Assembly: GCF_023716485.1 (NCBI RefSeq)
Contig: NZ_CP092418.1
Location: forward strand, 851,001-915,000
DNA from: Microbulbifer variabilis
GTDB lineage: Bacteria > Pseudomonadota > Gammaproteobacteria > Pseudomonadales > Cellvibrionaceae
Length of the DNA stretch: 64,000 nucleotides
Direction of reading: 5' to 3'
This document shows positions 1,114 through 64,000 of this stretch, in pieces (the first letter of the stretch is position 1; each line of letters opens with the position of its first letter). Position numbers and translations under genes: made by a program. The notes under the pieces are model-generated. The model had not been told where the DNA came from. It searched no databases and saw only the letters and a list, made by a program, of their open reading frames with translations.

Positions 1114-4100
1114 CTAGCTATGCGCCGGTTGTTCCATTGAATCCTGAATCAGTGCTGGTTCATTAGTTTTTGTTGTGTTGGACAAGCTGCCACCGGCAAG
1201 TTTGCGCAGCGCAACATAAAACACTGGGGTCAGGAACAAGCCAAACAGGGTTACGCCAATCATGCCGGTAAATACGGTAATACCCATGGCGTTGCGCACT
1301 TCGGCGCCAGCGCCGCTGGCCAGCACCAGGGGCACCACGCCGGCAATAAAGGCTACGGAAGTCATAATGATCGGACGCAAACGCAGGCGGCAGGCCTCCA
1401 AGGCTGCCTCTACGGTACCCTTGCCGTCCATTTCCAGCTCGCGGGCAAACTCCACAATCAGAATGGCGTTTTTACAGGCGAGCCCCATTAATACAACCAG
1501 CCCTACCTGAACAAATACATTGTTGTCGCCGCCAGTAGCCCAAACACCGAGTAGTGCAGCCAACAGACACATGGGCACGATCAGAATAACCGCCAGCGGC
1601 ATTACCCAGCTCTCATAGAGTGCGGCGAGTACCAGGAATACCAGCAGTACTGCGAGAGGGAAGACCACCATAGCGGCGTTGCCCTGGTTAACCTGCTGGA
1701 AGCTGAGGTCGGTCCATTGGATCTGCATACCCGGAGGCAGGGCCTGGTAGGCTACCTGCTCAACCGCCGCCAGTGCTTCAGAGGAAGACAGCATGCTGGG
1801 ATCGGATTGCCCCATCAGGTCGGCTGCGGGATAGCCGTTGTAACGGATGACCGGGTCGGGCCCATAGCTTTGGCGCAGGGTCACCATGGTGCTGATGGGC
1901 ACCATCTCCCCATTCATATTGCGGGTGTAGAGATTGTCGAGATCCTGCACTTCATCGCGGAAAGGCGCATCTGCCTGGGCAACCACCTGGTAGGTGCGAC
2001 CGAACAGGTTGAAGTCGTTGATATACATGGAGCCGAAATACAGCTGCAGGGTGCCGAACAGGTCGTCCATACGCACGCCCTGGGCTTTGGCCTGTAGGCG
2101 GTCTACCTCGGCGTCCATCTGCGGCACATTGGCCTGGTAGGAGCTGAAGGGATAGCTGAGGCCGCTGGCTTGGCTCAAGGCCCCAGCCAGCATATTGGTG
2201 GCATTTTGCAGCTCACCGTAGCCGGCACCACGGCGGTCCTGGACATAGAGGGAGTAACCGGAGCCTGCGCCCAGCCCGAAGATGGGTGGTGGCATGAAGG
2301 TCATGGCGAAGCCTTCCTTGATCTGGGAGAGCTTGCCGTTTAGCTCCGCGGCGATTTCGGTGGCACTGCGTTCGCGCACATCGAAGTCGTCGAATAGGAT
2401 AAATACCGTGCCCACGTTGGGGGTATTGGTGCCTTGTAGGGCGTTAAAGCCGACAAAAGCCGCCGCGTTGGCAACGCCCTCTGTTTCCAGAGCCAATTCA
2501 CTCACGCGGCGCGCAACTTCTTCAGTGCGATCCAGGGAGGCTCCTTCCGGCAGGCGGATACTGCCCACCAGGTAAGTCTTATCCTGAACCGGAATAAAGC
2601 CTCCGGGCACCTGTTGGAACAGGGCGAAGGTACCGCCGAGCAATATCAGGTAGACCCCAAATACGATACCGCGGCGTTTGAGGCTGTGGCCCACCACCCG
2701 CTGGTAGCGTTCAGAGTTGCGCTGGAAGAAGCGGTTGAACGGGCGGAATAACCAGCCGAACAGGCGCTCGATAATGCGCGCGGGCATATCCGGCTTGGCA
2801 CCGTGGGGCTTCAGCAGGGTAGCCGCCAGGGCCGGGGACAGGGTCAGGGAGTTGATCGCGGAGATAATGGTGGCGATGGCAATAGTGGTGGCGAACTGGC
2901 GGTAGAACTGGCCTGTGATGCCGTCCAGGAAGGCCATGGGCACAAACACTGCACAGAGCACCATACTGATGGCGACAATCGGACCGCTCACCTCGCGCAT
3001 GGCCTGGTGGGCAGCGGCTAAGGGTGTCAGTCCCTCCTCGATATTCCGCTCGACGTTTTCCACCACCACGATGGCGTCATCCACCACGATACCGATGGCC
3101 AGTACCATGGCGAACAGGGTCAGGGTGTTGATCGAGAAGCCCAACATCAGTAGCACCGCAAAGGTACCAACAATGGATACCGGCACGGCCAAGAGTGGAA
3201 TCAGGGAGGCGCGCCAGGTCTGCAGGAACAGGATAACCACCAGCACTACCAACAATACCGCCTCAAGCAGGGTCTTGATCACAGAGCTGATGGAAGTGCT
3301 GACAAATACGGTTGGGTCGTAGGCAACTTTCCACTCCAGGCCTTCGGGGAACTGCTCTCCCAGTTCCGCCATCTTCTCGCGTACTGCAGCGGAGACTTCC
3401 AGGGAGTTGGAGCCCGGGGACTGGAAGATCGGAATGGCGACCGCCTGGCGGCCGTTTAGTAAGGCGCGTAGAGAGTCTTGGGATGAGGCCAGTTCAACCC
3501 GCGCCACGTCACGCAATCGGGTGATTTCACCATCGCTGCCGGTCTTCAGTACCACATTGCCAAACTCTTCTTCGCTTTGCAGGCGGCCCTTGGCGTTGAT
3601 AGAGATCAGGAAATCAGAGCCATTGGGCATCGGCGAGGCGCCGATCTGTCCGGCCGACACCTGCACATTTTGCTCACGCACTGAGCTGACGATATCCGCT
3701 GCAGTCACGCCCAGGGCCGCCGCTTTTTGCGGGTCTACCCACAGGCGCATGGCATAGTCCCCGGAGCCAAAGACGGCGGCGAGGCCCACACCGGGAATAC
3801 GCGACAGCTCATCACGGATATGCAATACCGCATAGTTGCGAATATAGGTGGCATCAAGGCTGTCGTCTGGAGAGATCAGATGCACCGCCATCATCAGGTT
3901 GGGCGACTGCTTCTGCGTGGTTACCCCCTGGCGGCGTACGTCTTCCGGTAGACGGGGTAGTGCCTGGGATACCCGGTTTTGTACCTGAACCTGGGCCTGG
4001 TCTGGGTCGGTGCCCAGTTTAAAAGTGACATTCAAAGTGAGGGTGCCGTCACTGCCGGCCACCGACTTCATATAGATCATGTTTTCCACACCATTGATGG

Positions 4101-59764: not shown

Positions 59765-62700
59765 ATGAGTCACACCGAAGCAGATAAAAGCCTGGCCGCT
59801 TTACAGGCCCGAATCTCCGGCTGTATGGGACGGGACCGCTACCAGCTGTATCGAACGGTTAAAAATGTGCGCCGGCGCCAGAAAGAGGGCAAGCCGGTCG
59901 ATCGTATGTTAGCCCAGCTGGAACAGCAGCTGCAGGTTTCACAGTCTTTGGCAGAAGAGCGCCAGGGCAAATTGCCCGAAGTGCAGTGGCCGGAGTCGTT
60001 GCCGGTGGTGGCGCGGCGTGAGGAAATCGCCGAGCTGATCGAAAAGCATCAGGTTGTTGTTATCGCTGGTGAAACCGGCTCCGGTAAAACCACCCAGTTA
60101 CCCAAAATCTGCCTGTCCCTGGGGCGGGGTATTTATGGCCAGATTGGGCATACACAGCCACGTAGAATCGCCGCGCGCACTGTAGCCAATCGAATTGCTG
60201 AAGAATTGCAGCAACCTTTGGGGGAATCAGTCGGTTACCAAGTGCGTTTTACCGACCACAGCACTGAGCACACTCATGTCAAATTGATGACTGATGGTAT
60301 TCTGCTGGCTGAAATTCAGCGCGATCCACTATTGAATAAATACGATACGTTGATTATCGACGAGGCCCATGAACGCAGCCTCAATATTGATTTTCTACTG
60401 GGCTATTTAAAAACCATTCTGCCCAAGCGCCCAGATTTAAAACTGATTATTACCTCAGCTACGATTGATCTAGAAAAATTCTCTCAGCACTTTGATGACG
60501 CACCGATTATCGAAGTATCCGGTCGCACCTACCCGGTGGAAATTCACTATCGCCCGACGGCAGATAGCAATGCCGACCTCAACGAGCAGGTTGTCGCAGC
60601 AGTTGAAGAGTTACTGCATGAGGAAAAGTCCAGCAGCCGGCGCGGCGGGGACATCCTGGTATTTATGAGTGGTGAACGGGAAATCCGCGAGTGTGCCAAG
60701 GCTTTGCGGGATGCGCAGATTGCTCAGTTAGAGATACTGCCCTTATATGCGCGGTTAAGTCTGGCAGAACAGGCTAAGGTCTTTCACGGCCATAAAGGTC
60801 GCCGTATTGTGCTGGCCACCAATGTGGCGGAGACCTCCATTACGGTGCCGGGTATTCGCTATGTGATTGACCCGGGTACTGCGCGTGTCAGCCGTTACAG
60901 CTATCGCAGTAAAATCCAACGATTGCCCATAGAGCCGGTTTCACAGGCCAGTGCCAACCAGCGCGCTGGCCGCTGTGGTCGTGTCAGTGCCGGTGTCTGT
61001 GTGCGCTTGTACGAAGAGCGGGACTTTGCACAGCGCGCAGAATTTACCGATGCGGAAATTCTGCGCACCAACCTGGCAGCGGTAATCCTGCAAATGTTGC
61101 AGCTGCGTATCGGCGATATCCGTGAGTTTCCCTTTGTCGATCCGCCCGATCCGCGCCTGATCAATGACGGCTATAAATTGTTGCAGGAATTACAGGCCGT
61201 CGATGACCAGGGCAGAGTAACCAAACTGGGCCGCGCACTTTCACGTTTGCCGCTGGACCCACGATTGAGTCGAATGTTGCTGGCCGGTGCGGACAATGGC
61301 AGTGCGCGCGAATTATTAATTATTGTCGCCGCCCTGGCCGTGCAGGACCCGCGCGAACGCCCGGCGGAAAAGCGCCAAGCGGCGGATGAAAAGCACCGAC
61401 AGTGGCAGCATGAGCAATCGGATTTTCTATCCTTTGTGCAGCTATGGGATGCCTTCGAGACTCAGCGCCAGGAACTGAGCCAAAACCAGCTGCGCAAATG
61501 GTGCCAGAAAAACTTCTTATCCTGGCTGCGAATGCGTGAGTGGAGAGATATTCACCACCAATTGCGTGTGGCTTGCCGGGACCTCGAAGTCAAAGAAAAC
61601 AAAGAACCTGCGGAGTACGAGGCAATACACCGGGCCATTGTCGTGGGTTTACTCGGTAATATTGGCGCTCGAGATGAGAATAAGGAATTTATCGGTTGTC
61701 GTAATCGTCGCTTCCATATTTTCCCCGGCTCCGGCCAGTTTAAAAAACCTCCGCGCTGGGTGGTTTCCGCTCAGTTATTAGAGACCAGCCGCTTGTTTGC
61801 CCACACTGTTGCGAAAATAGAACCGGACTGGGTGTTGGCTGCGTCTAAGCACCTGGTAAAACGCAATTATTTTGAGCCCCACTACGATGTCCGCTCTGGG
61901 CAAGTAATGGCTTTTGAAAAAGTCTCTCTGTACGGCTTGGTACTGGTAGAAAAACGCCGTATTCCCTATGGCAAGTTGGACCCGCAAATCGCCCGGGAAG
62001 TATTTATTCGCCAAGCATTAGTGGAACAGCGTTATCGTGGCAAGGGTCGTTTTTATAAGCACTACACTGACCTGTTGAAATCCCTGGAAGAGTTGGAAGC
62101 CAAGTCCCGTCGCCGGGATATTTTGGTGGACGATGAAGTGGTTTATCGCTTTTTCGATGAGCTAGTTCCCGCAGATGTCATCAACCTGGCCGGGTTTGAG
62201 CATTGGCGCAAGAAAGCTGAAGCCAGTGATCCGCAGTTGCTGTTTGTCCCCCGTGAGTTGTTGATGCAGCAGAGTGCTGATCACGTGGGTGAGGCGCAAT
62301 TCCCTAACGAACTGCAGGCTGGGGGTATTGTTTACCCACTCCGTTATCACTTCGAGCCCGGCAGTGTAGATGATGGCGTCAGTATCCAGGTGCCCGTTGG
62401 GGCGTTACATCAGGTGCCTGCCGCTCGACTCTCCTGGTTGGTGCCTGGAATTTTACGAGATAAATGTATCGCGCTAATAAAAGCCCTGCCGAAACAGTGG
62501 CGCAAATACTTTGTACCGGTACCGGCGGCTGTGGATAAGGCCCTGCCGCGACTGCGCGCAGACAATACTCCCCTATGTCAGTCGCTGGCCTTGGAGCTGC
62601 AACGTCAGACCGCTCAGAAGCTACCTGAAGATGCCTGGGAATCTGCGGAACATTCCTTGGAAGATTTCTACCGCTTTAATATTCAGGTGTTGGATGAGTC

Positions 62701-63679
62701 AGGAAAATTGCTGGATCAGGATCGCGATCTCTCGCTATTGCAGGCACGCTATCGCGACCGGGTACAGCAGGGACTGGCAAATGCAGGCGATAGCTTCGAG
62801 CGGGATGATATTACCAGCTGGGATTTTGGTGAACTGCCGGAAACTCATACCCTCGATCAGGGAGGGCTCAAGGTGCGCGCCTATCCGGCGCTCGTAGAAG
62901 CTAAGGAAAGTGTTTCCCTGAAATTGCTGGATAATCCCGCTGAAGCGCGTCGCCTGAGTCGTGCTGGGATCTGCCGCCTGGCTCTGTTGCACTTGCCCGA
63001 GAAGGTGAAATATCTACGTAAAGAGCTGTTGCGTGGCAAAGAGTTGGGGCTTTCCGCCGCAGATCTGGGCCGCCGCGAAGAAGTGGCAGACGATATTCTG
63101 ATGGCCGCCGCGCGTGAAGTCTTCTGGGGAGATGAAAACTGGCCACGCAGTGAAGCTGAGTTTCTATCTGCACTGGAGAAAGAGGGTGATTTGGTGGGAG
63201 TGGCCCAGGAAATTGGCGACCTTTTGGTCAAAGCCCTGGGGCAATTGGTCCCCCTGCGCAAGCAGATCAAACAGCAAAAGAACCTGGCAGTCGCTATGGC
63301 GGTGGGGGATATCCAGCAACAATTGGCAGGACTTTTCTACCGGGGTGTCTTGTTTGATACCCCTCTGCAATGGTTGCGCCAGTATGGCCGTTATCTCAAG
63401 GCGATTTCTGTGCGTCTGGAAAAGGCGGCCCTCGATCCAAACCGCGACCGCAAGTTGCAAGTGGAGTACCACAAGGCTGCCGAGTCTTTCGATAATCAGA
63501 TTGAGAAGTTTTCGAGGAGAGAGCTGGCTTCAGAGCCTGCGCTGGTAGAGTATCGCTGGATGCTTGAGGAATTCCGTGTGAGCCTGTTTGCACAGACGTT
63601 AAAGACTCTGATGCCGATCTCTGCCAAGCGCCTGCACAAAGTTTGGATAGAAATTGATGGCATGGAGCTGCTCGGTTGA
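59765..63679 (+). CDS. hrpA: ATP-dependent RNA helicase HrpA
   Basis: A 1304-residue DEAH-box helicase. Walker A GETGSGKTTQLP (about residue 103 onward), DEAH in LIIDEAHERS, motif III ITSATID, motif V LATNVAETSITVPGIRYVIDPG and motif VI QRAGRCGR. HA2, OB and the HrpA-specific C-terminal domains follow, as expected for a protein of this length (E. coli HrpA is 1300). It unwinds RNA, rescues stalled ribosomes and affects mRNA processing. Ends before an uninteresting hairpin-like region. Alternative starts inside are not needed. Confidence 0.97.
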   Translation: MSHTEADKSLAALQARISGCMGRDRYQLYRTVKNVRRRQKEGKPVDRMLAQLEQQLQVSQSLAEERQGKLPEVQWPESLPVVARREEIAELIEKHQVVVIAGETGSGKTTQLPKICLSLGRGIYGQIGHTQPRRIAARTVANRIAEELQQPLGESVGYQVRFTDHSTEHTHVKLMTDGILLAEIQRDPLLNKYDTLIIDEAHERSLNIDFLLGYLKTILPKRPDLKLIITSATIDLEKFSQHFDDAPIIEVSGRTYPVEIHYRPTADSNADLNEQVVAAVEELLHEEKSSSRRGGDILVFMSGEREIRECAKALRDAQIAQLEILPLYARLSLAEQAKVFHGHKGRRIVLATNVAETSITVPGIRYVIDPGTARVSRYSYRSKIQRLPIEPVSQASANQRAGRCGRVSAGVCVRLYEERDFAQRAEFTDAEILRTNLAAVILQMLQLRIGDIREFPFVDPPDPRLINDGYKLLQELQAVDDQGRVTKLGRALSRLPLDPRLSRMLLAGADNGSARELLIIVAALAVQDPRERPAEKRQAADEKHRQWQHEQSDFLSFVQLWDAFETQRQELSQNQLRKWCQKNFLSWLRMREWRDIHHQLRVACRDLEVKENKEPAEYEAIHRAIVVGLLGNIGARDENKEFIGCRNRRFHIFPGSGQFKKPPRWVVSAQLLETSRLFAHTVAKIEPDWVLAASKHLVKRNYFEPHYDVRSGQVMAFEKVSLYGLVLVEKRRIPYGKLDPQIAREVFIRQALVEQRYRGKGRFYKHYTDLLKSLEELEAKSRRRDILVDDEVVYRFFDELVPADVINLAGFEHWRKKAEASDPQLLFVPRELLMQQSADHVGEAQFPNELQAGGIVYPLRYHFEPGSVDDGVSIQVPVGALHQVPAARLSWLVPGILRDKCIALIKALPKQWRKYFVPVPAAVDKALPRLRADNTPLCQSLALELQRQTAQKLPEDAWESAEHSLEDFYRFNIQVLDESGKLLDQDRDLSLLQARYRDRVQQGLANAGDSFERDDITSWDFGELPETHTLDQGGLKVRAYPALVEAKESVSLKLLDNPAEARRLSRAGICRLALLHLPEKVKYLRKELLRGKELGLSAADLGRREEVADDILMAAAREVFWGDENWPRSEAEFLSALEKEGDLVGVAQEIGDLLVKALGQLVPLRKQIKQQKNLAVAMAVGDIQQQLAGLFYRGVLFDTPLQWLRQYGRYLKAISVRLEKAALDPNRDRKLQVEYHKAAESFDNQIEKFSRRELASEPALVEYRWMLEEFRVSLFAQTLKTLMPISAKRLHKVWIEIDGMELLG

Positions 63680-63912
63680 GTACTGCTTAGCCACAGTTCA
63701 CAAAAAAATTTGTGGCCTTGTGTAATATTTCCCAAACTGGCCCGACAGATGAATGAGAGTCGGTAAGCATACGCGGCATCATTAAATATGTGATGGCTGT
63801 GAGCCGGTTTCACAATATGACGGTTTTTCAGTGCGCATCATTATACTGTTGCGGGACATAGAAAAAGTCATAGAGAGTTATATTACATTGGGTATTAGTT
63901 AGGAGATTCATT
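63680..63912 (+). promoter_or_regulatory. Region between hrpA and the right-edge peptide gene
   Basis: A 233-base gap. GCCACA...TGTGGC (63690-63715) could form a hairpin after hrpA, but the T-run is short. A TATACT -10-like element lies at 63842-63847 and a ribosome-binding site (AGGAGATT) precedes ATG 63913. A good -35 was not found, so an ECF-type sigma promoter is possible but not shown. Confidence 0.4.
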
Positions 63913-64000
63913 ATGAACAAGAAGCATCTTTCCCCTGTAGCAGCTGCTGTTGGTGCTGCTTTTATTGCAACTGCTGCGATGAATGTATCTGCATCCACCG
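63913..64000 (+). CDS. Secreted peptide precursor, HvfA-like RiPP (partial, cut by window edge)
   Basis: The first 29 codons of a gene running off the right edge. The N-terminus (MNKKHLSPVAAAVGAAF, then IATAAMNVSAST) has a signal-peptide shape with the LSPVAAAVGAAF core seen in HvfA-type precursors (formerly listed as low-complexity or DUF2282-like proteins), which end in repeated EGKCGEGKCG units. In known clusters a DUF692/MNIO enzyme (HvfB), a DUF2063 partner (HvfC) and a DoxX-type protein follow and convert Cys residues to oxazolone/thioamide groups that bind copper. Only the leader is visible here, so the cysteine repeats and the partner genes are not confirmed. A BufA1-type bufferin precursor is the main alternative. 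AGGAG lies 7 bases ahead. Confidence 0.6.
   Translation, partial: MNKKHLSPVAAAVGAAFIATAAMNVSAST

Follow-up and report, generated by a model that had tools for sequence, protein, structure and literature searches.

The right edge of the window, by which we mean the whole 64,000-nt stretch analyzed here (G000:C1:851001-915000 of a single-contig 4.86-Mb Microbulbifer genome), cuts through an open reading frame. Is this fragment the start of a genuine gene, and what would the gene and its neighbors make? The fragment was confirmed to be a genuine gene start, that of mmrA, the first gene of an mmrABC (hvfABC-type) operon. Translation of 63913-63999 gives MNKKHLSPVAAAVGAAFIATAAMNVSAST, with the frame still open where the window ends; in the same genome (L002, C1:913000-932000) it runs past the window to L002:2252 (G000:C1:915251). 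The features of the locus are the following.

59765..63679, + strand: hrpA-type DEAH helicase gene with DUF3418, the upstream neighbor, outside the RiPP system
63680..63912, + strand: hrpA-mmrA intergenic region, presumed regulatory, lacking the GAAC-N17-19-GTC element described below
63842..63847, + strand: TATACT, a presumed -10-like hexamer
63901..63905, + strand: AGGAG, the mmrA ribosome-binding site, 7 nt 5' of the ATG
63913..64000, + strand: 5' part of mmrA (HvfA/MmrA precursor), the first 29 codons plus one base
L002:1914-2252: complete mmrA precursor gene, 112 amino acids
L002:2334-3179: mmrB, MNIO (DUF692) gene, GTG start, 281 amino acids, beginning 81 nt past the mmrA stop codon
L002:3163-3942: mmrC, DUF2063/RRE gene, from the chosen ATG (the listed frame opens at GTG 3046)
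L002, from 4116: mlaA, the next gene after mmrC
L002, from 5054: RssB-like response regulator/phosphatase gene, 3' of mlaA
L002, listed from 6411 and typed from 6438: RssC-like STAS gene

The RssB-like and RssC-like products (region L002:5054-6956) each score under their equivalog cut-off.

The mmrA frame is not a chance one, since GGAG lies no more than 14 nt before the matching ATG in all 46 complete Microbulbifer mmrA genes and 367 protein relatives were found at E ≤ 0.001 among 438 candidates. The earlier note had proposed an HvfA-type precursor from the 29 visible residues and had named a search for Cys repeats beforehand as the test of that idea. Seven EGKCG units follow these residues and hold every Cys of MmrA (positions 60, 70, 80, 90, 95, 105, and 110). 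The Cys units are separated by Lys-rich stretches, and the core repeats appear in the DNA as periods of 15, 30, 45, and 60 nt. By inspection the N-terminus has the look of a Sec-type signal peptide, with a Lys-rich n-region, a hydrophobic core, and a VSA site. MmrA passed the NCBIfam model NF050137 'HvfA family' (43.8 bits, cut-off 19.5) and failed the strict HvfA equivalog NF050188 (35.4 bits, cut-off 95), and Pfam gave no match at E ≤ 0.001. The precursor thus belongs to the HvfA family and lies outside the strict HvfA equivalog.

The prediction of a DUF692 gene within a few kb was borne out by mmrB. Its product matches Pfam PF05114 with 353.8 bits, and its best PDB relative is 3BWW (E 9.9e-74). 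Across 47 sequences, the own one included, 138 of the 281 MmrB residues are invariant, among them the putative metal ligands N173/N174, D216, and H218. These ligands were mapped through the 3BWW alignment and PMC13419390, and by reading of the alignment they would correspond to HvfB N175, D242, and H244, the Ala variants of which are reported as inactive (PMC13419390). The predicted DUF2063 (HvfC) gene was likewise found after the MNIO gene; with its ATG taken at 3163, mmrC overlaps mmrB by 17 nt. MmrC consists of DUF2063 (PF09836) and NGO1945_C (PF22106) domains, passed the HvfC model clearly (330.1 bits, cut-off 142), and has a PDB relative in 3DEE (E 2.5e-12). A DoxX gene, also expected downstream, is missing: mlaA comes after mmrC, and the genome has its five DoxX matches elsewhere. 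The operon does start at the window boundary with hrpA upstream, as had been claimed, but it does not follow directly, since a gap of 233 nt separates the hrpA end at 63679 from mmrA. Overall, the reading in the earlier note is supported. The modification chemistry is now assigned, by analogy with characterized systems, as formation of a 5-thiooxazole.

The operon is not new. Since the genome is that of a Microbulbifer and the operon corresponds to the cluster described in PMC12538549 (Tang et al. 2025), mmrABC here is the already known mmr cluster in another species of the genus, and the nine best relatives among named genomes are all from Microbulbifer. According to the available text of that paper, mmrA-C, with the product bulbicupramide, occurs in all strains of the study, and MmrA of Microbulbifer sp. 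VAAF005 expressed in E. coli lost 4H per Cys and bound Cu(I). The same text calls the thiooxazole assignment tentative and reports that MmrA-C went undetected in proteomes of Microbulbifer whether or not copper had been added. The growth gain in copper, seen in E. coli, was only slight, and the authors are reluctant to ascribe a protective role.

The start codon bears on how these published results may be read. In MmrA of VAAF005, Cys40 and Cys45 are the first two Cys by the published numbering (PMC12538549). In two six-Cys precursors of our survey with the spacing of VAAF005 (L092 and L093) residue 62 is the first Cys and becomes 40 when counted from an internal Met23; the published numbering therefore fits a start at Met23. 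For this reason the published MmrA may lack the signal peptide, as a construct without the first 22 residues would. Met23 is not likely to be the start across the genus, because it is Met in 22 of 46 precursors (Leu, Val, or Ile in the other 24) and GGAG precedes the first ATG in every one of the 46. The precursor of Microbulbifer sp. SSSA002 (P0019), a strain named in PMC12538549, is recorded with the full N-terminus. If the full gene encodes a signal peptide, as is probable, experiments on what its product does should be carried out with the exported form.

All but one of the 48 Microbulbifer species genomes have an mmr ortholog (at least 73% identity), none of these with an internal stop. 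All 47 loci have mmrC and mlaA, and hrpA precedes at 46, the remaining locus (L127) being cut by the contig end inside mmrA. L127 was excluded from the 46 precursors and upstream regions and, because hrpA is missing, from the tree. The genomes also hold twelve further MNIO matches (34-43% identity; 11 of 48 genomes). All 307 Cys in the 46 precursors lie in EGxCG, 293 of them in EGKCG. The number of Cys per precursor is 6 in 21 precursors, 8 in 14, 7 in seven, 4 in two, and 2 and 10 in one each, a wider range than the five to eight given in PMC12538549. Beside a set of 80 loci, nine of them from Microbulbifer, a loose pattern found a precursor at 65 and none at 15.

The region upstream of mmrA was compared at the 46 complete loci. 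TATA[AC]T occurs within the last 180 nt 5' of mmrA at 43 of them, as against a mean of 3.7 and a maximum of 9 of 46 in mononucleotide shuffles, a comparison in which the rows are related. No canonical sigma-70 promoter was found on either strand of L002:1640-4200 (mean of shuffles 2.5), terminator-like sites in this region were at chance level (3 against a mean of 2.4), and Rfam gave no riboswitch or other known RNA at E ≤ 1 in L002:1600-4200. A GAAC-N17-19-GTC element was present in 20 of the 46 upstream regions (mean 1.96 and maximum 8 in 200 shuffles), a count that is not an independent test because the pattern was picked after viewing the sequences and the rows are related. The spacing is N18 in all 20 elements, and 11 continue as GTCTGA. 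In the tree based on the last 190 hrpA residues (47 rows), a single group of 19 rows contains 18 of the 20 element-bearing rows, and the other two fall outside it. Among the upstream regions, the first 17 rows (L083-L099), including that of the window, have no such element. We take the element to resemble sigma-E (RpoE/AlgU) promoters; since many relatives have it, envelope stress is worth trying as an inducer of this 'silent' cluster. The close relatives of the own gene share other blocks at 63680-63912, namely a CACAAAAAAA stretch, TGTAATATT, and CGACA.

Taken together, mmrABC very probably encodes a system that makes a copper-binding peptide. MmrA would be synthesized with a Sec signal peptide and a leader ahead of its C-terminal core of EGKCG units. 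MmrC, with its DUF2063 and RRE domains, would hold the leader while MmrB, as a multi-iron MNIO oxidase, would remove 4H from each Cys to give 5-thiooxazoles. Modified and exported, the peptide would bind Cu(I), most likely to buffer copper in the periplasm and not to scavenge it as a secreted product. This analysis contributes gene content and order, family assignments, the conserved putative ligands, and the conserved Cys motif; that each Cys loses 4H and that Cu(I) is bound was shown by others with a relative's genes in E. coli. Counting against the mechanism are the score of MmrA under the HvfA equivalog cut-off, the lack of DoxX in the locus, and, from PMC12538549, the failure to detect MmrA-C in proteomes and the slightness of the growth gain in copper.

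A different precursor type, a different fate of the peptide, or no function at all could be envisaged instead. The earlier note had left a choice between HvfA and BufA1. A BufA1-type (DUF2282) bufferin would share the enzyme superfamily, and MmrB does reach 271.6 bits with the BufB model; this is under the cut-off of 310, whereas with 443.9 bits MmrB lies far above the HvfB cut-off of 360. HvfA is the right reading because a profile search of the genome gave zero DUF2282 matches and a single MNIO match in total, and both the NF050137 and HvfB models were passed. With EGKCG repeats in the precursor as well, the BufA1 alternative has virtually no weight; as an identity for the precursor it is refuted by the missing DUF2282 match. 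It is also unlikely that the MmrA peptide is cleaved and released as a chalkophore, scavenging copper in the manner of methanobactin. The product is termed chalkophore-like in PMC12538549, and Lys-rich stretches set the Cys units apart, but no protease, exporter, or receptor was found among the seven neighboring products typed against Pfam, and the same paper neither recovered the product from Microbulbifer extracts nor saw a protease gene close by.

Still less probable is that the operon has become a silent relic and no longer serves any function in this species. This would fit the VAAF005 proteome without detected MmrA-C (PMC12538549), the failure to find a canonical sigma-70 promoter in L002:1640-4200, and the loss of the cluster in one genome of the survey. 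Against these stand the intact orthologs in 47 of 48 species genomes, the Gly kept after all 307 Cys, and the extent of invariance in MmrB.

Two genomes, G014 and G037, depart from the pattern and count as one case because they are sisters in the hrpA tree (support 100/99). Their features are the following.

L140:5532-6156: region of G014 with a damaged mmrC remnant, 38% identical to MmrC residues 155-251
L141:2075-4354: bufferin-1 system of G014, in which a DUF2282 precursor stands with an MNIO of the BufB family and a partner that is weakly HvfC-like
L134:2131-2520: mmrA homologue of G037, 129 amino acids; the leader is of the usual kind, and the residues include 2 Cys, 9 Met, and 6 His

G014 has no mmr ortholog: mmrA and mmrB were not found between hrpA and mlaA, and the mmrC remnant has stops in each frame (1, 3, and 4). 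The published conservation, termed 'obligate', does not extend to this genome. The MNIO beside DUF2282 in G014, its only MNIO match, passed the BufB model (376.9 bits, cut-off 310), and the HvfC-like partner gave 35.0 bits (cut-off 142). DUF2282 matches occur in 7 of the 48 genomes, G014 and G037 among them; in the other five it accompanies an mmr cluster of the ordinary kind, so the presence of DUF2282 is not by itself enough to cause mmr loss.

The G037 precursor carries a Met/His-rich array of repeated MQHGEG units. The mmrB and mmrC beside it have open frames, and MmrB reaches 434.9 bits with the HvfB model, above the cut-off of 360. The precursor had no NCBIfam match at E ≤ 0.01 and would therefore escape the family model. 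Since its relative P0122 has ordinary EGKCG/EGNCG units, the array appears to be derived. A search with this precursor gave six proteins, and the array was present in none of the five that were read; the L132 precursor, which matches the sixth (P0044) in its length of 93 amino acids and in the length of its contig (548,841), has no such array. Tentatively, the pair may be abandoning thiooxazoles: the MQHGEG array of G037, in place of most of the modifiable Cys units, would bind Cu(I) unmodified, G014 has lost mmrA and mmrB, and the DUF2282 bufferin-1 precursor carried by both genomes, in G014 beside a BufB-family enzyme, could have assumed the task. We consider this possible, with the balance somewhat against it. 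If true, the chemistry of copper binding would have changed naturally inside a single precursor. The loss in G014 and the Met/His variant in G037 offer natural comparisons for the purpose of thiooxazoles.

Among known systems the locus is closest to mmrABC/bulbicupramide as described in PMC12538549, sharing the genus, the three genes and their order, the Lys-separated EGKCG units, and the lack of a nearby protease. The own MmrA has seven Cys whereas that of VAAF005 has six, and its gene begins 22 codons earlier than the published numbering would imply if the construct of that paper starts at Met23. Bufferins BufA1 and BufA2 (PMC12452194) are described as copper-binding, with an MNIO, a DUF2063 partner, and a signal-peptide precursor, but their precursor family differs, DUF2282 being absent from the own genome. 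The same source counts ca. 2,000 EGKCG precursors, mainly in Pseudomonadota. In hvfABC(X)/oxazolin of nontypeable Haemophilus influenzae (PMC13419390) the HvfB and HvfC families and EGKCG-type repeats recur, and HvfA there has a signal peptide. Unlike the own locus and the published mmr cluster, that system includes a DoxX-like HvfX gene, and the own precursor scores under the HvfA equivalog cut-off (35.4 against 95 bits). A 5-thiooxazole is given for oxazolin in PMC13419390 and PMC13097082. By their description in PMC13097082, fontiphorin (fonABC) and gonophorin, from other organisms, are likewise similar in EGKCG motif, MNIO with DUF2063 partner, and 5-thiooxazole.
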